From Beroe forskalii (taxonomy: Eukaryota; Ctenophora; Nuda; Beroida; Beroidae), in contig WFMF01000046.1 in assembly GCA_011033025.1 (NCBI GenBank), forward strand, positions 62,001 through 126,000: DNA of 64,000 nucleotides, given 5' to 3'. How positions within the stretch are numbered: the first letter of the stretch is position 1; each line of letters opens with the position of its first letter. A model generated the notes under the pieces. The model was not told the origin of the DNA and searched no databases. It worked only from the letters and a program-made list of their open reading frames with translations. Below, one piece after another: positions 24,301 through 57,952 of the stretch. The position numbers were made by a program, and so were the translations under genes.

Positions 24301-25362
24301 TGAGGAATGATGATGACGTCATCAGAGACGTTATCGCAGTAACTATAAGGGGAGGCAGGTGGTGGTTCCTCAATGCCGAGTGTGTATTGTGTCTGGCAAT
24401 AATAGTAGTAGAAATATAAGCTCATTCTAAGCACCAGGTGGTTTTTATACCGGGCGTCTCCAAACTCTGCCGATGAGTCAACTCACCACTTTCTGCTCTG
24501 ATAATGACGTCATAAACTACTCAATTGTCGCTTTGAGAAAGTGAAAGCTTTGTCTCGCGCTCTCATGTGGGTCGTGTAGAATCTGATATGCAAAGTGTTG
24601 TCCTCCACCTACCCCTGAAACTTTAATGGAGGTACTTATGGGGGCTAAATTACCCCAAGCTTCCAAGGTCTCTATAGCCGTATAGTATTACTTTCAGTTT
24701 AATATGGGCGCAGGAGTTGAAGTTTAAAACGATGAAGTTCTAACTGAGAGCTGATAAACATTTCAAAAATCATCCCAAATTATAACCCACTTTTAATGAA
24801 ATTAATAAAACCAAGTTTAGCTATTTTTCTACCCTCTTGAATGAAAATTGTTATCCCAGGGTATATATTTACTGTTACTGGCCTGCTAAAAAATAAACTA
24901 ACAATCTTTTAGTTTTGATCGCCCTTAGGAAACGACCGGTTAACCGAACCGAAACCGAAATACCGGTTAACCGGGCGTTTTCAGCCAACCGAAACCGTAA
25001 CCGGATATTTTGATTTCGCAATTATCCGTTTGGTGAAATCGGTCGATTAACCGAACCGAAACCGAAATGGGTTAACCGGCGTTTTCAGCGAACCGAAACC
25101 GTGTAACCGGTCGTTTGGTAATCGCCCTTCCTATAACTATAAGAAATAATCATGGAAATTGGAAGCAGCACGCCGTGTAGAACGATATCCTAAAGCCCCC
25201 CTCTGTAATCCTGCCTTATTCCAGGTTATTGGCAGTAGATCTGACGCCTACTCCGTTGGTTTCTCCTCCATCCATTGCAACCCTGATACTCTCACCAGTC
25301 CGGAGTCAGCCAGTCACAGCAGCATGGAAATGAAGCAGTTCGAGGGACCCTCCCATATCTAG
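12327..25362 (+). CDS. TMEM145/GPR180-like seven-transmembrane protein
   Basis: Fifteen exons give 475 aa, close to vertebrate TMEM145: 12327-12427, 12638-12680, 13185-13274, 13740-13866, 14664-14734, 14877-14958, 15253-15324, 20556-20624, 20770-20877, 21379-21457, 21599-21692, 21894-22066, 23151-23255, 23427-23502 and 25225-25362. It has a signal peptide (FRVFVGLVLGLTLVEVG), a luminal domain with paired Cys, then the family landmarks RARWWYFAVSNC, KLTNGNSFWNRHVSADEIGI, SKGWTVVRGRLS, MFDPGEVLYEFESLPGY and LILTRPSNANRAFPFN. The family is a seven-pass membrane group of poorly known role; GPR180 has been linked to signalling at the cell surface. Exon 3 seems to use the second of two AGs. Introns 8 and 11 lack a GT donor at the position that restores the conserved protein. 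A very large repeat fills intron 7. Confidence 0.9.
13441..13547 (+). repeat. Dispersed repeat, copy 1
   Basis: Shares tgtctatcgatgat, gagtgacgc and a conserved end, ccgcttcgc(a/g)gctgcatcag followed by cgggtctggtatcacc, with a second copy at 25416-25500 at the other end of the same gene. Confidence 0.7.
13548..13739 (+). repeat. Long C/T-rich tract before exon 4
   Basis: About 190 nt of almost pure pyrimidine on the plus strand, built from ccccttttccacc-like pieces, leads directly into the CCCCCACAG acceptor of exon 4 of the TMEM145-like gene. It acts as a greatly expanded polypyrimidine tract. Confidence 0.75.
14452..14605 (+). repeat. 21-bp tandem repeat
   Basis: About seven copies of gttgctatgacaacatgtg plus two bases in intron 4 of the TMEM145-like gene. 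The unit is a multiple of three, so it produces a false open frame. Confidence 0.85.
15068..15176. repeat. Nested inverted repeat (MITE-like hairpin)
   Basis: Arms of about 40 nt, starting gtttcaattgatttgagtaa, are inverted copies with one mismatch. The loop contains a second hairpin, ctcgtttcactaaacgag. It lies in intron 6 of the TMEM145-like gene. Confidence 0.85.
15995..20315. repeat. 4.3-kb array of a 40-bp minisatellite
   Basis: About 105 copies of a 40-bp unit that starts gatagtgtcccctgttagtg and ends tcctctgttaactt. Long runs are identical; scattered copies lack one C or G or are rearranged (for example near 17030-17080 and 18340-18380). It contains the palindrome GTTAAC. There are no unique spacers, so it is not CRISPR-like. 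It fills most of intron 7 of the TMEM145-like gene and is bracketed by copies of the 29-bp repeat that abuts exon 8. Confidence 0.97.
20316..20566 (+). repeat. 29-bp array made of copies of the exon 8 acceptor
   Basis: Nine copies of tcctcttttcccagacattt followed by tatgaataa. The last copy supplies the real acceptor: attcccag is followed by the first exon bases ACATTTTG. Two related copies lie at about 15948-15993, left of the 40-bp array, so the big array appears to have grown inside this smaller one. Confidence 0.92.
20624..20782 (+). other. Intron 8 flanked by a 14-bp direct repeat, no GT-AG solution
   Basis: AGCTATCGCTACCA lies at the end of exon 8 and again, 145 nt later, at the start of exon 9 after a good tttccag tract. 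Removing one copy plus the intervening DNA restores the conserved reading LSLQAIATTISTIYR. No register within the repeat gives GT-AG; the register ending in CAG starts with CT. Confidence 0.6.
20878..21100 (+). repeat. 40-bp array starting at the exon 9 donor
   Basis: About five and a half copies of a unit holding ggttaccatggtaactgttg and tgttaccatgattctcatct. The first copy overlaps the exon 9 donor (ACCACAG then GTTACC). GGTTACCATGGTAACC is itself a palindrome. Confidence 0.85.
21094..21244. mobile_element. MITE with terminal inverted repeats
   Basis: Starts TGGTGTTCTGACT and ends in the near reverse complement AGTCGGGACACCA. Inner arms gcggcgtattgcg / cgtaatacgccgc and aagcaca-type segments also pair. 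It lies in intron 9 of the TMEM145-like gene and is non-coding. Confidence 0.7.
22660..23165 (+). repeat. Threefold duplication containing the exon 13 acceptor
   Basis: ctcaggttcctggct occurs near 22723 and 23026 as decoys, and as the true acceptor plus exon start at about 23147. Phrases agcgagagattgagactt and cctcagt(c/t)(a/t)tt recur with it. Only the last copy continues into the conserved FLAKPITVMIASFLLEDYY coding sequence. Confidence 0.75.
22863..22900. repeat. Hairpin with a poly-C loop
   Basis: AATAATCATATG and its exact complement flank a G plus a run of 11-13 C. Confidence 0.85.
24918..25128. mobile_element. hAT-like MITE with 8-bp target duplication
   Basis: ATCGCCCT lies on both sides (24918-24925 and 25121-25128). 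The element runs 24926-25120, begins TAGGAAACGACCGGTTAACC and ends in the near reverse complement CCGGTCGTTTGGTA. Its body repeats aaccgaaaccgaaa. It is the best-preserved relative of the element that forms the LamG-gene intron at 53838-53951. Confidence 0.8.
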
Positions 25363-48236: not shown

Positions 48237-51200
48237 TTAACTCGTAGGTTCTTTCGGATCAAACGGAGCAGCAAGTGATACCTCAGCGTCGTACATTTCA
48301 CCCATGCATTCCACCTGAAAACACACGAGGCTTGTTAATAGACTACAAATGGAATAACACCAGATCACATGAGGTGGGTTAGGGGCTGTACATGAAATAA
48401 TCCACAAAATGTAGGCAACTTTATATCCCCCCCTCCTACGTCCGCATTAGCCAGACCCCAACTCCCCGTCATTGAGGGCGTCCTTTATGGACGGACCCTC
48501 AACAGATTACAAGTGAAAAAAGTGACGTTATTATCAACGTTTAGAATGATGAATCTTTGACATAAAACCCTCACTGTTTTGTTTTCTATCACAGTAGAAT
48601 TTAACCACAATCGGTAGGATCCGGAGTCCGGACCCCATTGTGTGGATCACACGGCACATGATAAAGGTATCTTCCGTTCCATGGAAAAGGATCTCTGTTG
48701 GTCCACACCTAAAATCATGAGTCCTACCCCCTCCCATGAAGTTAAATGATTACCGACCTCCGTCACAGCTCATTCCTACAATGTAAAGTAAGGAATCCGC
48801 ATGGACCCATTGCGAATAAAATCTTATAATTCCAGCCATTATAATACCAGTCATTGGTGAAGCAGATTCTCAGCATATCATCTAAAAATAAAGCGATTCC
48901 AAGGCATAGCACCGGCACATAATAGTGATGATTATCCAGGCAATAAAAACAGATTATGAGCATCTCATATGGGAAAGAAAAGCTCAAGATAATTAGCAAT
49001 TATACTTATGACTTAGTACCATTCGCGAAATTCTGCCTAAATCGATGCAACACACTGCATTATTCAGCTGGAATTCAAGCAGCTGACTTCATTCTAGGCG
49101 GTCTCCAGGCAGGTTTCGTGTACGCTTGAAAACGGGCCGAGGCTCGATATTTCCGCGTTTTATACCACTGAATTCTTATTTCCGCGTTAAATTTGCCTGC
49201 TGCTTCGATTGCATTTGTGGTACGGCTGCGGGGTCCAAAATAAACTGATACAAAATACAAGGATACAAAGAAGTTATTCTAGTTTACGTTTTCCTTTCAC
49301 ACGTAATACGTTTGGAGTTTGGACCACTTCCAATGAAAGTATGTTTTGGTACGTTCAACGAACATTTCGACAAGTTGCGCGCGCAATAAATAATTTCAGG
49401 GCGCGCAAATTAAATTTTAAAGTTTGTCGCGTTTTCCGTTCAGTCGACTGGTATGCGACTCAACTAGCAGGAATTTTCCACAATATCGCCTAATCTGTTC
49501 CCTCTTAAAACCCAATCACGCACCGCTTTGATTCCAGCCAAAAGCTGATGTTTAAGAACAGAGAAGTACTAATCAGTCCTTTCTATTACCACTGTCTCCT
49601 TGACAACACCCGTTTGTAGGAAGGGTTAGAAACAACAGCTCCAAACCCCCTTCTATTACCTGGTATTTCCCTGACTTCACCCAATCCAAGTTAATCTTGT
49701 CAGGGTGGTTGACATATCCCCAAGCTACGTTACAACCCACACTGTAACCGTATGCAGTACGAGACACGTAACCCACAATCTCACCGTCTCTATACACTGT
49801 CTCTAGGGTTACCAGAGGGACAGGGCTGAAATAAGAGGTATTGTAACGAGATATTGAGATAAGGGGAATTATAGAATAAATATGTCCTCACCCAGCGGTA
49901 CACTTGGCTAATATGGAAATTATAGCTATTGGCGTGTCCAATGAGTCGTCAAGACGGCTTGATATCAAGGTCGAACACGCCCCTATGAATTACTAATTGG
50001 TGTTGGTTATGGCTGTCTTGTAACTTTCCATAATTTGACCAAGAACTGATGAATATAGTCAATAATCACGCGGTTACCATCCGTTACCAGCTATGTCCAA
50101 TCCTGCCATATTTAAAACTGCTTAATTCACGGCTTAAAACTGCATATCTGAATCTTATGAATTCAAACCCACCAACTGTACCACACAACTCTTATTTACC
50201 TGTCGACTTTGAGACAAACAAGTCGCTTCTTGACACCATTCTTCTTCTGCGCAAGCAAAGCATCTCTCCCCAAGAAGTCAGTTCCTGCTTTGAGTTTAGC
50301 GTTTACGAGCCATGCCATTCCTGCTTCGAGAGGGGTGGTGTCTGGTCTTACATCCTCATGCCAATGCTTGTATCCTGTTAGGGGGTCACCAGGGGTCAGT
50401 AGGGGTCACCAGGGGGTCAGTAGGGGTCACCAGGGGGTCAGTAGGGGTCAGCAGGGGGGGTCAGTAGGGGTCAGCAGGGGGTCAGTAGGGGTCACCAGGG
50501 GGTCAGTAGGGGTCAGCAGGGGGTCAGTAGGGGTCACCAGGGGGTCAGTAGGGGTCAGCAGGGGGTCAGTAGGGGTCACCAGGGGGGTCAGTAGGGGTTA
50601 CCAGGGGGTCAGTAGGGGTCACCAGGGGTCAGTAGGGGGTCACCAGGGGTCAGTAGGGGGTCAGTAGGGGTTCACCAGGGGGTCAGTAGGGGGTCACCAG
50701 GGGGTCACCAGGGGTCAGTAGGGGGTCAGTAGGGGTTCACCAGGGGGTCAGTAAGGGGTCACCAGGGGTCAGTTGGGGTGACCAGGGGTCAGTAGGGGGT
50801 TCACCAGGGGGTCAGTAGGGGGTCACCAAGGGGTCAGTAGGGGGTCAGTAGGGGGTCACCAGGGTCAGTAGGGGGTCACCAGGGGTCAGTAGGGGGTCAC
50901 CAGGGGTCAGTAGGGGGTCAGTAGGGGTTCACCAGGGGGTCAGTAAGGGGTCACCAGGGGGGCAGTTGGGGTGACCAGGGGGTCAGTAGGGGTCACCAGG
51001 GGGTCAGTAGGGGTTCACCAGGGGTCAGTAGGGGTCACCAGGGGGTCACCTGCACCAGGGGGTCAGTAGGGGTTACCAGGGGGTCAGTTGGGTTACCAGG
51101 GGGTCACCAGGGGTGGTGTCTGGCCTTACATCCTCAAGCCAATTGCCAATGCTTGTACCCTGTTAGGATATTAGGGTATGAAATTAGACATTATAGGTCC

Positions 51201-54200
51201 ATCAAACTCACCAAATAATGATAAATTGACATTTCTCAAAGTAATAGGTTCCAGCAACATTATAAAACAAATGAGCACCTTAGAATAATTAATCTGAACA
51301 TCTTGAAATTTAATCGTAGCATCTTAACATTTAATCTTAATAACATCTCAACATTTCATCACACCCCACTAATTTTATACTTCGGATGTATCTAGGAATA
51401 ATATAAGAATTTTTGACGCTCTAGGGCTGACTATACGCTGCACCTCATGGAAATTGACCTGTGTATCGTAAGATATATTGAGCCCTAACTTTGATAGTTT
51501 CATATTGTCCGTGATACGATGCCCGTATCAATGCGTGGAAGTCAATGCTTCAATAAACTAAAGCCTTTCATTAAGTACATACCAATTTCAATATTTACAT
51601 TTATTTCAAATTTTATCGACTGTACGCGATTCAAAATCATTTTTTTATTCCTCATTTTTATTCCTGTTGTTCAACATTTTTACTTAGGTTCCGCTTGATT
51701 ACAATTTCACTGATGTAACGAATTTTTCTCTAAAAATTGACTGCTTTAAGGTAGCATGAATACTAGTTGAAAAGACACCGATATCAAGAAGTTGAGAAAT
51801 CTACCGAGCAAGGAAACGACAAGAGATAATTCCACTTTAGGACGGCTACGGAACTAAGAACTTTGTTAAAGTGCCCTGTCCAGGGAACACCAGCCATGGC
51901 TGCGATAGTGTTGGCAGTGTTGGTGAGAGTGTTACTGTTTGACTCATCTGGAACTCAAGTAGATCCCGGGGATCCTATAACCGCTGACTTTACCCTTCTA
52001 CCATACCGTGGTGAGTGGTTACAGTTACAATCTGGGTTTGTGATATGACTTGAGAACACTATCTGTAGATACCAACACAATAGTTCGGTCTGAGTCGTAA
52101 TGTAATCTGGGTTTGTGTTGAGAAACACAACCTGTAGAAACCAACACAATAGTTCGGTCTGATCGGAATGTAATCTGAGTTTGTGTTGAGAACACTATCT
52201 GGAGAAACCAACACAATAGTTCGGTCTGAGTCGTAATGTAATCTGAGTTTGTGTTGAGAACACTATCTGGAGAAACCAACACAATAGTTCGGTCTGAGTC
52301 GTAATGTAATCTGGATTTGTGTCGAGAAACACTTTCTTTAGAAACCTCCCAAACCTGTAATCCGAGTTTGTGTTGAGAACACTATCTGTAGATACCGAAA
52401 CAATAGTTCGGTCTGAGTCGTAATGTAACCTGGGTTTGTGTTGAGAAACACAACCTGTAGAAACCAACACAATAGTTCGGTCTGAACCTCTCGCGAGGTT
52501 CCTCTGAGAAACCAACACAATAGTTCGGTCTGAGTCGTAATGTAACCTGGGTTTGTGTTGAGAACACTATCTGTATAAACCAACACAATAGTTCGGTCTG
52601 ATCGGAACCTCTCGCGAGGATCCTCTGAGAGCTCTCAGAGGTTAACCACCCTGACCAAGTCATCCTTTCACTTACTACTTAATTACTTAGTACAATAAAA
52701 TAGCTACATCTAACCATGCACATGGCCATTTAAAATAACACCCCCGATTATTCATGACTTATCACCTAATTTGACCCAATTGAATTTCTTCTAATTCCTA
52801 GCATTGGCTGGGAATCGAACCCGGGATGTTTAGATTACGATCAACACTTCATACCATTACACCACCTGAATGTCCTCTAATTCCAGGCATTGGAGAGCTG
52901 GAGTTTCCAGGGGACATAGAAAGCTACGTCAAGATCCTCCCAGGCATCCGGATCCCAATGATGCTGAATGGGTTCACAGTCTCCTTCTGGGTTTACGAAA
53001 CACCTGTAGAGGATAGCACAGGCTACGTTTTCTCCTACGCTACAATGGTCCCTCCTGGCGAGGGAGGTCTCATGATAGGACTCGATGAGGGGAAAGTGGT
53101 GGTCAACATGAAGCCACAGACAGTTGTCTCGAGAGGTTTTTATAAATCACTTTATCAGAGAATGCCTCAACTGACTTAATCAATGAGTTAATCAGAGAAT
53201 TGCCTCATCTGACTCAATCAATGAGTTAACCAGAGAATTGTCCCAAGAGGTTTTAAGATTAATTTCTATAACTTTTCTATCGCTTCCCAATGAAACCTGG
53301 TAACAGTCCTATCTTACAGATCCCGTTGTCCCTAGCAACACGTGGTGCCACGTGGTGGTCACGTTAGAGAACACTGAATTGAAGCTCTACGTAGATACAA
53401 CTAAGCGGGACTTAGTGGCGACTCAACTTGACACCGTACTTATTGCACCAGGCGGCACTCTAATCATCGGACAGGTCTGGTTTAACTCAAGAACTTAAGA
53501 GTTTATAATAACAGCAGGTATTTCATAGTTCTTTTGTCGAAGAAGTAGCCTCTGCATTAGCCTTAGTCAGTAGTAGAAATGGCAGGGAATCGAACCCAGG
53601 ATCTTTCGATCACAAGCCAGACTGAATGCCATTACACCAACTGAACACACTAACTGATACGATTCCCGTCTTCTAAACCTCACACTTTCAGAGGGTTTCG
53701 GTCTGAATCCAGGCCTCAGGAACTACATTGAATTCCAACCTAGCTGCTCGTTCTCCGGCAAACTGCGCCAGTTGTATTGGCTCTCTTTTCCTCTCATAGA
53801 GGAAAAGTTGAGGAAGTCTACCTGAATGGGATGGCAGGTAGCAAACGACCAGTTAACATTTCTCAATCAAATCGGTTTCGGTTGGCTGAAACGCCCGGTT
53901 GACCGGTAGTTGGGTTTCAGTTCGGTTATTACTAATGTTTCCTAATGCCAGGAGCTGAACTCACATATTACATCGTGGGATGGAGTGAGGTTCTGGACAA
54001 CGAGAGTAGGGTTGGGAACGTGGTAGAGAGAGAAGGGGACAGTGACGCAGAGGAGGAAGAGATGGAAGAAGAAGAAGGAGGAGGAGACACAGGAGAGGAA
54101 AGGGGGGAAGAAGAGGACAGACCAGTTCCAGGTATTAGCATCATAACGATGCTTCTTCATTTCCAATGTTAGGGATGCTATCTCGTGATCTCTTGATAGC

Positions 54201-57200
54201 ATCCCAATATTGATGAAGTTAACGATCTATTCAGCAATGATTCATTCACAGTTATGAACTCAACAAAGACCAAAATGAAGTTGGGGCTTCTTTTTTGGTC
54301 TAAAACACAACCATCCATCTTACCTACGAAAATTCGAAGTTTTTTAGTGGAAATTTTCTTGATTATTTCAGAGTTTCAGGAAAAAAGTATCGTTACGTAA
54401 ACATTCAACTGAAAATTCCCTTATTAACCCAATTTATTGCTCAGAAAGCCTCATCAATATAGCATCTCAGAATCTCAGATCTTATCAAAGGTTAATGCAC
54501 ATGTCAATAAAGTGGGGTAGATTATAAGCGCAGCCCACTGCCAGAGAAATGTCAACTTCTTTCCAGAATGAGCAAGATCACAGAACAAACTGGGTAATTG
54601 TGGGATTATTTCTCTCACGATTGAGTATTCATTGTAATTGTAGCTTTGTAGTCACTGACGATTACTGTAATTATAGCAATGACGCTACGCTTAAACAATT
54701 TCTATTAATTGACTAATTGAATGCTACATTAACTGATTGTCTGAAATATGAAATTGTCAAACAAAAATGAGAACCTCTCATTAAATAATTTAAACCTCTC
54801 CTACCTTTGAAATAAATCACATGTTTTTGATCGTTTGAGAAATCCCCAGACAATTAAACCACCAACCTTTCTCCGAGGATAGCGCGTCTATGGCCCTGTA
54901 TCCGGCATTAACGAGCCCATGCTCCTTCCCCGCCTCCATCAAACTCTGGTATACCTCCACTAGACCCTCAGTGGGGATGTGCAGTTCCCAACCCAGCTCA
55001 CCCACAAACGTGAGACGCATTAAGCGGACCTGAGATAGTGCGCATTTGAAATGTGCCGCACCTGGAATAGTGCGTATTTGAAATGTGCCGCACCTGAGAT
55101 AGTGCGCATTTGAAATGTGCCGCACGTGAGATAGTGCGCATTTGAAATGTGCCGATCAACTGGGATAGTTTTAATGAGACATTAACATGGAAACATTTTA
55201 TTGTTTTAACTTATAAGTGAAATGGTGCTTTTTGATTGTTATGAAAATGATTTTGATATGTTCATGGAATATGTTCAATTAATTGACCAACATTTCTTTC
55301 CATTTGTCTTGTTGGGTGATTTAAAATTTTAAGGAAATGTTTAGAAATTCTTTCTTTCAAATATCTGTAAGTCTGAAAACACTTCTTCCTTTTAAATATC
55401 TACAGTAATTCAAAATAAATTCCACCCTCCCCGTCCTAACCTGGTGCCCAGCAATAGTCGTGAGTTGGTGAGTTGAGAAGGGGAAAGCCTCGTTTGACAG
55501 ATCCGCATCACAAATACTCTCCAGTATTTTCCTGCTGTTAGGGCCCTGCACACTCAGCATTCCGAACTCAGAACTGTGCTCTGTAAAGTTATTTTATCAG
55601 ATTAGCACTGTGCTCTGCAAAGTTATTTTATCGGATTAGCACTGTGCTCTGCAAAGTTATTTTATCTTAAGTCTCTGCAAAGTTAATTAATAGACATAAG
55701 ACAAGCTCTAGAACATATAAGACAAGCTCTGAATTTAAAAATCAAGCACCAACAATCAGCGTATTTCAGTCTATCGTCGAATTAAGCAAGAACAACTGAA
55801 TGAAACTCCTTCCAAAGTTAGTAGTAGAATGAAAGTACCTGTCATTGTAACATCGAACTGCTTTTCGTCTATAACTCGTGCGATGTGGAACTTATCTCTA
55901 GTGGAGGAACCACCCCCAGCGGCTATGTAGAACCTATCATGTCCTGTCCTGTGGGGGTATAGTTTAGTAAATGGGGGGGTTATAGTTTAGTCAATAGGGG
56001 GTTGGGGTGGGGGTTGAGGAACCGCCCCCAGCCGCTATGTAGAACCTATCATGTCCCGTCCTGCGCGAAGATGAGGTTGAATTATCTTAGAATAAGGTTA
56101 TCAAACTCTTATCCAAATTCAATGTCGGCATGTCCTGGGGGTTTATTAATTTCTGCATTTTTATTTACAACCAGTCTAGCAGTCTACAGGTCTTAGTCAG
56201 GTTACCAACCAATATTTCGAAAGTAAATGCAAATTTCAATCTCGACTCCTAATTTCAATACAACCTTTACTCACTCCGGGCAAGGTTCGATGTGGGAGAC
56301 AGTGAGGTCGGTCTCTGATCCCCCGTTCTTATTCAGCATGTTGGTGTAGACAGTCCCTCCTTGTCCTTTGTTAATGTTCGAGCAGCACAGGTAATCAACT
56401 GCGGCCTGGAAGGGGAAGGGTTGTAATTATTATGTTTAAAATACTTTAATTACTTTGTACTGAAATAAAACACTAAATAAAATAAATAACGATGAATATT
56501 AAAATCTTATCATTTTAGAATTGTGAGAACGTTTTAATCTGCAAACCACAGTTTATAAGTCAATGAAATTTGATCTATTATGCCTTCATGAAGTAATATC
56601 ATTGATAAAGTGGTTGATATTAACTTCATTAGAACTCTGATGGCACTTACGCAGAACTCTGCTTTAAATTAATTTAATATTGAAGCAGGGTCTTTAAAGG
56701 TCATGCGGGTCACGTTATATTTAATGAAAATATTATCTAATCATTATATTATTCAGAGGACCTGTAACAGGGTCAATATATGTCATGTTGCTTAGAGGGT
56801 GACAAACCCCTCAGATGTCCTCACACTTGCTTCATTTCGTTGATATGCTTATTCAATATACATGACCCGTGTGCGTGACCATTCATTAAAGAAACTAGGG
56901 TTAACAATTCATTTGGAAAAGGCTTTGGATGTGGATTCAGAGAAAAACATAAAAAATTTTCTTTTCTTAACAAGAGACATTGTTGATCATATTGTACTAT
57001 TGCAGCACTTCTGTACTGTGGTATGTGGAGCTAAGAAGAGAATAAAGAAAATTATTCATTCCATTATGCGGCTCATAAACAATTATCCGATATTTCAGTT
57101 AAGATAAAAAATATGCTGCATAAACTTTTCTCTGGATCAGTATCTATTTAGTGAATTGTATATCCTAGTTTCTTTGAGATCACTAGGAAATACAATCCAC

Positions 57201-57597
57201 GCTCAGCAAATGATCATGTTTAGAATATTCTCCTCCTTCCTTACCTGAGCTGCAGCAGCATGACAGCATGGCAACGAAAATGAGAAATAAAATGAGAAAT
57301 AAAATGAGAAATAAAATGAGAAAGAGAATGAGAAAGAAAATGAGAAAGGAAATGAGAAATAAAATGAGAAAGAAAATGAGAAAGAAAATGAGAAAGAAAA
57401 TGAGAAATGAAACATTAAAACAACACCCAAAAAATCCCTATCTCCCCACCTGCGCGTCTGGCCCTGTGAGATAGAACTTTCCAAAGTAGCTCATGTTGAA
57501 GACTGCTGCTTTCTCCCTGCAGGCGGCTGACTCCGCTCCTATCACTTGGAAGTGATGAGGGGGGTAACCGAACGTGTACTCAGCATCCAACCGGTCT
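48237..57597 (-). CDS. SARDH: Sarcosine dehydrogenase, C-terminal two-thirds
   Basis: A mitochondrial flavoenzyme that demethylates sarcosine to glycine, passing the one-carbon unit to tetrahydrofolate. Minus-strand exons in order: 57597-57450, 56405-56275, 55948-55839, 55580-55441, 55029-54867, 50374-50200, 49825-49660, 48314-48237. All phases agree. Landmarks include [98 protein letters not shown] and the GcvT-type C-terminal barrel ending [10 protein letters not shown]. The N-terminal FAD domain is missing: it should lie upstream, at or beyond the assembly gap at 57853. At least four of its acceptors have local copies. The 4.5-kb intron between 54867 and 50374 holds the LamG gene on the other strand. 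Dimethylglycine dehydrogenase is less likely, given the VGELGWELH and GYKHWH context. Confidence 0.93.
48426..48502 (-). repeat. Partial copy of the GGGGCCATC-type MITE
   Basis: Reverse-oriented relative of 27627-27945: shares the tacgtccgcattagccagac and cctttatggacggaccct phrases. Lies just beyond the SARDH stop-side exon, in intron DNA. Confidence 0.6.
50325..51170. repeat. GGGGTCAC/GGGGTCAG array flanked by two copies of a SARDH acceptor
   Basis: About 35 units alternating ggggtcaccag and ggggtcagtag fill 50381-51115. A ~50-bp piece covering the start of the SARDH exon and its acceptor (ggtggtgtctggtcttacat, then cctcatgccaatgcttgtat) occurs at the left end as the real exon and again, slightly diverged, at 51113-51167. 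Confidence 0.88.
51896..54172 (+). CDS. LamG / concanavalin-like domain protein nested in a SARDH intron
   Basis: Six exons give 284 aa: 51896-52010, 52887-53135, 53320-53474, 53694-53770, 53800-53837 and 53952-54172, with a total length divisible by three. ATG at 51896 starts a hydrophobic leader ([14 protein letters not shown]), so it is probably secreted. The middle is a jelly-roll LamG/pentraxin-type domain: [72 protein letters not shown] and [20 protein letters not shown]. The C-terminus is a strongly acidic run of Glu. The partner is unknown. Intron 4 is only 29 nt and intron 5 is a transposon. If the donor-like GGTATTAG at 54137 is used, more exons could follow; simple read-through gives a stop at 54172. 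Confidence 0.75.
52030..52620. repeat. 68-bp tandem repeat in intron 1 of the LamG gene
   Basis: Eight to nine copies of a unit containing gtaatctgagtttgtgttga, gaacactatctg and ccaacacaatagttcggtct. It starts about 20 nt after the exon 1 donor. Minus-strand open frames through it are artefacts. Confidence 0.9.
52622..52641. repeat. Perfect 20-bp palindrome
   Basis: CCTCTGAGAGCTCTCAGAGG at the end of the 68-bp array. Confidence 0.9.
52788..52897 (-). repeat. tRNA-like insert flanked by copies of a splice acceptor
   Basis: On the minus strand, GGTGGTGTAATGGTA (A box) and GGGTTCGATTCCCAG (B box) identify a tRNA-derived sequence at about 52800-52873; no full cloverleaf forms. It is flanked by ttctaattcctagcattgg on the left and tctaattccaggcattgg on the right. 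The right copy is the true acceptor and start of LamG exon 2. This is either a long SINE target duplication or another local copy of a splice junction. Confidence 0.6.
53120..53260 (+). repeat. Duplicated LamG exon 2 donor with 37-bp repeats between
   Basis: TTGTCTCGAGAGGTTTTTA at the donor recurs as ttgtcccaagaggttttaa near 53240. Between them, atcagagaattgcctcatct and gactcaatcaatgagtta are repeated. Confidence 0.7.
53583..53645 (-). repeat. tRNA-like fragment
   Basis: On the minus strand, AGTTGGTGTAATGGCATTCA (A box) and CTGGGTTCGATTCCCTGCC (B box). The acceptor stem is not paired, so it is a SINE-like or pseudo-tRNA copy rather than a functional tRNA. Confidence 0.5.
53771..53799 (+). 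other. 29-nt intron (intron 4 of the LamG gene)
   Basis: GTTGTATTGG, a pyrimidine-rich middle and CTCTCATAG lie between CTGCGCCA and AGGAAAAG. Removing them gives the continuous LamG strand [20 protein letters not shown]; keeping them gives a stop after EKLRKST. Very short for an animal intron. Confidence 0.7.
53831..53952 (+). mobile_element. hAT-like MITE acting as an intron (introner)
   Basis: The target duplication is ATGGCAGG (53831-53838) and ATGCCAGG (53945-53952), differing at one base. The 106-bp element between starts TAGCAAACGACCAGTTAAC and ends TAATGTTTCCTA. Its body (ggtttcggttggctgaaacg, cccggttgaccggt) matches the reverse strand of the MITE at 24926-25120. The intron runs 53838-53951: its GT is the last G of the left duplication plus the first T of the element, and its AG lies in the right duplication. 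Splicing removes exactly the element plus one duplication and restores GMAGAEL. Confidence 0.85.
55022..55154 (-). repeat. 32-bp array of copies of a SARDH acceptor
   Basis: Four copies of cctgagatagtgcgcatttg plus aaatgtgccgca. On the minus strand each gives gcgcactatctcag followed by GT; the copy at 55030 is the acceptor of the exon starting at 55029. Confidence 0.88.
55573..55692 (-). repeat. 34-bp array of copies of another SARDH acceptor
   Basis: Three and a half copies of actgtgctctgcaaagttat plus tttatcggattagc. On the minus strand each reads aataactttgcag followed by AGCACAGT, the acceptor and first bases of the exon that starts at 55580. Confidence 0.88.
56006..56068 (-). repeat. 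Copy of the 5' end of a SARDH exon
   Basis: About 45 bp (minus strand: ggacatgataggttctacat, agcggctgggggcggttcct) repeat the first part of the exon at 55948-55839, with an AG acceptor in front. The copy runs into ggggtt repeats instead of coding sequence, so only the proximal copy can be the exon. Confidence 0.85.
57258..57415. repeat. (aaaatgagaaag)n microsatellite
   Basis: About a dozen 10-12-bp units of aaaatgagaaat or aaaatgagaaag, in a SARDH intron close to a donor. Confidence 0.9.
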
Positions 57598-57852
57598 CTG
57601 GGGAGGACAGTATCAAAAGATGAAAATGAAGGGTCGATTGGACTTAGATTTGGTCTAGTCAAACTTAGATTGGTAGTTTGCTAAAAATTGCGTTTTCCCG
57701 CGAACCCGGGGGCACAAACACCAGCATCCCGAGAGGATTTAAATCCTTAAAAATTTTTAATCGTCTACGTTTCCCAAATTGAAAGTTCCCCGAAATCCCC
57801 CCCAGAAATTGGGCCTCATGAGGGTGTTGCCATAAAAAAACCATACCTTGTA

Positions 57853-57952
57853 NNNNNNNNNNNNNNNNNNNNNNNNNNNNNNNNNNNNNNNNNNNNNNNN
57901 NNNNNNNNNNNNNNNNNNNNNNNNNNNNNNNNNNNNNNNNNNNNNNNNNNNN
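57853..57952. other. Assembly gap (100 N)
   Basis: Exactly 100 N, the usual placeholder for a gap of unknown size. The SARDH 5' exons and the 5' part of the acetyltransferase gene may lie partly inside it. Confidence 0.98.

Follow-up and report, generated by a model that had tools for sequence, protein, structure and literature searches.

The introner elements of Micromonas and Aureococcus, which Huff et al. are said to have described in 2016, are reportedly TIR elements that make target site duplications (TSDs), with one splice site taken from the duplication. Maize Ds/Ac elements, in work attributed to Dennis (1988) and Giroux (1994), reportedly act as introns and are spliced from exons. 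The family of elements that we describe here, in the ctenophore Beroe forskalii, is like the Micromonas and Aureococcus elements in having TIRs and TSDs and, by prediction, in drawing a splice site from the duplication, although the hosts there are unicellular algae and the likeness is one of description rather than of sequence. It differs from maize Ds/Ac in that those are mutant alleles in a plant, whereas here many copies lie in conserved animal genes. In their defining form, the TIRs of hAT transposons are short and begin with (C/T)AG or a similar sequence. Introners have been surveyed across genomes, and a survey later and larger than the one discussed below reportedly exists.

According to the main text of Gozashti et al. 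2022 (PMC9860276), introners occur in 175 of 3,325 genomes, their hosts are mostly aquatic, mRNA length is usually unchanged, and among animals and land plants they are present in two groups only, both of them animals, which the available text does not name. As described there, introners are DNA transposons, short and non-autonomous, that carry TSDs and/or TIRs and become introns when they insert, the duplication contributing the splice sites in whole or in part; the Beroe family is similar in each of these respects and differs in its ctenophore host and in that a single family shows three splice-site layouts and both orientations. Passages of PMC3260210 give Ac/Ds, which are hAT elements, an 8-bp TSD and ends of the form (C/T)AGGGATGAAA...TTTCATCCCTA, edges similar to those of the Beroe family, and Mar, in Drosophila (PMC3517528), is described as a family of TIR-bearing hAT MITEs, to which our family is likened by that description and not by intron formation. 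No report of ctenophore introners was found in our literature search: the main text of the Beroe ovata genome paper (PMC11184263) contains no word starting with 'intron', and in the available text of PMC6142364, the one paper that came up for introners and ctenophores together, the single occurrence of 'introner' is in the reference list.

The window, by which we mean the whole analysed stretch of 64,000 nucleotides, contains on its forward strand an interval, 53838-53951, that is very probably an introner, judging from its sequence and that of its relatives: a short non-autonomous hAT-type DNA transposon that would have inserted into a coding exon and be spliced as an intron. A 106-bp non-autonomous hAT-like element (TAGCAAACGACC...GTTTCCTA, 53839-53944) lies between a left 8-bp target duplication ATGGCAGG (53831-53838) and a right one ATGCCAGG (53945-53952) that agrees with the left at 7 of 8 positions; at a single predetermined place, agreement at 7 or more of 8 positions would arise by chance with a probability of 3.8e-4. 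The sequence across the insertion reads ...GGGATGGCAG / GTAGCAAACGACC...GTTTCCTAATGCCAG / GAGCTGAAC.... As the earlier note had claimed, the interval equals the element plus exactly one duplication, giving a predicted intron of 114 nt (GTAGCAAAC...AATGCCAG, 53838-53951). Its donor GT (53838-53839) straddles the left duplication, whose final G opens the intron, and the T of the element, and its acceptor AG (53950-53951) lies inside the right duplication; both can be read directly in the sequence. The element holds a branch-point-like TACTAAT motif, with CTAAT 17 nt before the intron end by a script count. If the intron were retained, the reading frame would gain 20 codons and then meet a stop within the element. 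The predicted RNA fold of the intron is not unusual (z = +0.49). The MITE that the earlier note had placed at 24926-25120 is also borne out: this second, 195-bp copy, on the forward strand with ends TAGGAAACGACCGG / TACCAAACGACCGG, is flanked by a perfect 8/8 duplication, ATCGCCCT on the left (24918-24925) and ATCGCCCT on the right (25121-25128).

The host gene of the window copy is a five-exon, plus-strand gene with a LamG/pentraxin-like product (Pfam Laminin_G_3, 2.3e-13; Pentaxin, 1.2e-5, with a query that bridged a frame break in exon 4). The model begins with an exon at 51896-52010, and the Laminin_G_3 match starts in the second exon (52887-53135) and extends into the third (53320-53474); exon 4 (53694-53837) lies upstream of the element and exon 5, the last modelled (53952-54172), downstream, so that what had earlier been called intron 5 is intron 4 in our model. 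As assembled, exon 4 has no single frame, with an apparent one-base shift near 53801-53808, in an A run about 30 bp upstream of the intron, a break on which the earlier note is silent. A 1-base deletion in the A run seems to us the likelier cause and a 26-nt intron less likely, and a one-base indel is likelier than a real lesion. Two of the introns of this gene hold similar blocks (52800-52870 and 53575-53650) with GGGAATCGAACCC, which resemble the B box of a tRNA-derived SINE. Searched against Rfam at gathering cut-offs, the window gave no hit. A minus-strand gene at about 50200-57700, which we take to be SARDH-like, matches GCV_T (1.8e-14 and 3.1e-6, in pieces near 55 and 57.5 kb), and one of its introns may enclose the LamG-like gene, provided that a weak piece near 50.3 kb (E = 0.17) is its next exon. 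A run of 100 N, either an assembly gap or a masked stretch, occupies 57853-57952. The origin of the DNA is supported by mitochondrial COX1 on contig C1134 (13,339 bp), provided that this contig comes from the same animal as the others. By our comparison of positions, AGA/AGG occur in this gene at sites that are usually arginine in COX1, which is the usage of code 4, and when translated with code 4 it matches a Beroe forskalii COX1 record over 507 aa at 100% identity.

The window element is not a chance match, as copies of it are dispersed in the genome (E down to 6e-23). A genome search with the window intron and its flanks gave at least 60 matches, with 40 of 217 candidates scored. The exact 14-mer end TASSAAACGACCGG occurs 423 times (199 forward and 224 reverse; 2 and 2 for the control), and a 17-base version with one mismatch allowed occurs 333 and 333 times (1 and 2 for the control), so that copies number in the hundreds. 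Family ends have the form TA[G/C][C/G]AAAC...GTTT[C/G][G/C]TA and insertion produces 8-bp duplications; many copies carry TASSAAACGACCGGTTA at both ends. The duplication is perfect (8/8) for the window copy at 24926, for L016, L020, L027, L028, L030, L032, L047, L067, L080, L081 and L084, and for two long elements. Of the 26 elements whose duplication is clear, 24 measure 100-240 bp, and the family is short, non-coding and present in many copies, with TIRs and TSDs, as is expected of MITEs. The earlier description of the family as hAT-like fits its TAG...CTA ends, which are short TIRs, and its 8-bp target site duplications. As for a transposase, 23 places in the genome encode a hAT dimerisation domain, with open frames of up to 996 aa, and none of them was linked to the family TIRs. 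Two long elements on contigs C46 (L059/L060, 3.1 kb) and C159 (L064/L065, 4.1 kb) have family ends and perfect 8-bp duplications, and were considered as candidates for the autonomous partner; in the parts that were read, the largest non-repetitive frame was 106 aa. One of the two is partly filled with simple repeats.

The earlier note had named, as a ground for rejecting its reading, that the family is never found at other intron boundaries; this is not so, since insertions that look like introns, with 8-bp duplications and the element in either orientation, occur in many unrelated genes. We modelled 18 such introns, including that of the window, and each consists of the element together with a single 8-bp duplication, or of a decayed form of this arrangement. 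These represent about 17 insertion events, since L010 and L044 lie in neighbouring duplicate genes (contig C665) and have a common left duplication. The genes include PDE9A, alpha-spectrin, a collagen, a kinase, cathepsin L and NFRKB. The introns are 111-463 nt long, with splice sites at or beside the element edges, and are GT-AG in 17 of 18 models and GA-AG in one (PDE9A, L035), where the element edge seems to have lost a few bases. In 12 models a script detected a duplication of 6/8 or better, in four more (NFRKB, L045, PDE9A and L083) one was recognised by eye, and none was found in the other two of the 18, an RCBTB copy (L044, one base short) and an ankyrin gene (ANK, L036), which has lost its right end. 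In blastn comparisons (E up to 1), the window intron was matched by all 17 other introns, although for L036 only over the first 20 nt; introns of different genes thus share sequence that reaches both splice sites. Read-through instead of splicing would meet a stop inside the intron in all 12 models tested. One model, the 228-nt intron of L083, contains two family elements in tandem, separated and flanked by similar 10-bp pieces.

Homology carries across several of these junctions. Pfam matches span the junction in the collagen (2.4e-7), the protein kinase (3e-20), PDEase (6.2e-23) and spectrin (5.8e-16), and a weak SRCR match across a junction falls below the cut-off (0.02). The collagen junction keeps the Gly-X-Y register, a solved PDE9A structure aligns through its junction gaplessly, kinase structures align through theirs, the NFRKB structure alignment passes through with a 2-residue gap, cathepsin L aligns through its junction to papain-like protease structures with gaps near the junction, and the alpha-spectrin match spans 22-173 (1.4e-36). 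For RCBTB, ankyrin, NUP210-like (L016), L017, L030, L034, L045, L083 and TOGARAM-like L032, we found a continuing frame, or a domain match that is one-sided or too weak, and several of these labels are presumptive. Those of L003/L044 (presumably RCBTB) and L032 (presumably TOGARAM-like) are of this kind; L003/L044 have a weak RCC1-like match downstream of the junction, L032 has neither a Pfam nor a solved-structure match, and the peptidase label of L017 comes from a motif alone, with no Pfam match. A scan of seven further joined frames gave no match for L005, L019, L028, L052, L057 and L050, and for L024 an EGF-like match on one side of the junction only. Beside this EGF-like frame, the L024 insertion has a 6/8 duplication that is outside the three layouts described below.

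These models suggest a simple mechanism in which the terminal T and A of the element would act as half splice sites, for which the target would supply the completing G. In mode A (the window, L010, L015, L017, L033, L038, L040, L082 and others), the duplication ends in AGG, so that its G and the T of the element would make the donor GT while the duplicated AG serves as acceptor. In mode B, the duplication starts with GGT, the donor would lie in the left duplication, and the final A of the element plus a G would give the acceptor; spectrin L076 has this layout, as by eye does L018 (GGTAACTG/GGTAGCTG), which is outside the 18 models. In mode C, found in NUP210-like L016 and TOGARAM-like L032, an AGGT inside the duplication would provide both sites. 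In all three modes the intron equals the element plus one duplication, so the mRNA would be unchanged. The inverted repeat TAGGAAACGACCGGTTAACC gives GTAGGAAAC at the 5' end, a plausible donor context, and GGTTAACCGG...GTTTCCTA at the 3' end, where it would offer a branch-point-like TTAAC and a pyrimidine tract; since the same repeat supplies both kinds of signal, either orientation could splice, and among the models both occur. A branch-point-like yTnAy motif lies 16-22 nt before the AG in 11 of 18 models by raw count. We envisage that the elements are mobilised in trans by a hAT transposase and removed as spliceosomal introns, and that selection would remove exonic insertions that cannot be spliced.

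The cathepsin L genes provide an empty site. Matches to the cathepsin L gene on contig C469 fall into two segments (query 1-64 and 55-153, 95% each), whereas for its closest paralogue, on C1102, a single open frame covers query 5-153 (82%). Three other cathepsin paralogues (one on C325 and two on C216) also read through. The C1102 DNA reads CTCGCAGG, with no element, and C469 reads CCCACAGG-element-CCCCCAGG; small indels near the insertion site are a further difference between the two genes. In this one gene, the element is thus found inserted into an exon that is uninterrupted in C1102. A further paralogue on C558, which is cut off further on, has the insertion at the same place as C469. In the simplest history, C1102 would have split off first, the insertion would have followed, and C469 and C558 would then have separated. 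With 150 of 205 candidates scored, the cathepsin L query has at least 149 matches in the genome, many of them lying in long frames without interruption, and these constitute a large protease family.

Among the other explanations, a target preference of the transposase fares best. If the transposase favours AGG- or AGGT-like sites, intron-like insertions could arise with no selection for splicing, and we regard this as possible, although we doubt that it is the whole account. The trinucleotide AGG precedes 24 of the 423 exact ends, and GGA, with the same letters, precedes three (binomial against 1/64, p = 1e-7; Fisher against GGA, p = 4e-5). The corresponding enrichment for mode B was not found genome-wide (ACC 4/423, control CCA 1). 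Of these AGG ends, 12 are in intron models, and in L032, L033 and L035 the intron is on the other strand from the AGG end, so that 9 of 24 would be used. The other 12 look non-coding, one-ended, unclear or placed at an existing acceptor, and they include L042, where two GCAGGAGG pieces flank the element and an open frame precedes it, a candidate for a further intron outside the models. AGG duplications also occur at apparently non-coding sites (L027, L029/L050, L080, L081 and L084, with L080, L081 and L084 having perfect duplications), so part of the AGG excess may reflect target preference. Against this explanation stands a comparison of 26 elements with duplications of at least 6/8 (20 scored by script and six by hand, namely L015, L018, L026, L054 and the two long ones), which were drawn from the search with the window intron plus flanks, the 17-base end search and one further set of loci. 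With the window copy excluded and coding status judged non-blind, splice-competent duplications were found in 7 of 7 coding insertions (L003, L015, L016, L017, L018, L032 and L076) and in only three or four of the 18 others. The window-intron query held flanking bases, so the loci that it recovered are not blind to AGG, which favours target preference; the 17-base end search, which is blind to AGG, on its own yields two coding insertions, both splice-competent. A target preference would in any case be compatible with intron formation and would change only why AGG sites are common.

A more specific concern is that the window copy disrupts a LamG gene that is dying, with its edge GT and AG present by luck or poorly used, which we consider unlikely. 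The frame break some 30 bp upstream speaks for it, as does the status of the gene as a single-copy gene with no detectable homologue: a protein database search found none at E <= 0.001, and a genome search with exons 4 and 5 found no paralogue, so that there is no empty site for the window's own gene. The exon at L017 has a frame break that resembles that of exon 4, and these two genes could therefore both be damaged, although the recurrence of the same kind of break suggests assembly indels instead. The reading after the LamG element intron also stays open up to its stop, and the same arrangement recurs in conserved genes, which argues against a dying gene, although the exon 4 break means that the window gene alone is no proof of a working intron. 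That the element merely colonised pre-existing introns, older than the transposon and only appearing to derive from it, is very improbable: two copies (L028 and L043) do sit at or beside the acceptor of an apparent existing intron and duplicate it, but most models consist of the element plus one duplication with nothing left over and duplicated bases on both sides, and for cathepsin the straight reading of C1102 through the site largely refutes this idea (L036, with its right end lost, being no test of it).

Sequence comparisons lend strong support to the introner reading of the family and make it probable in the case of the window copy. We further lean towards the view that Ctenophora possess an introner family in which one TIR would carry both splicing signals and the terminal T and A would serve as half sites, so that insertion in either orientation beside a suitable G may yield an intron, and that hAT ends may be generally pre-adapted to this role. 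The origin of new introns is a long-standing question. With its many copies, an empty site in one paralogue and an insertion shared by two others, this ctenophore family allows intron gain to be tested directly in a lineage near the root of the animals, and our analysis suggests a simple rule, in which TA...TA ends and a flanking G would explain why hAT elements can become introns.
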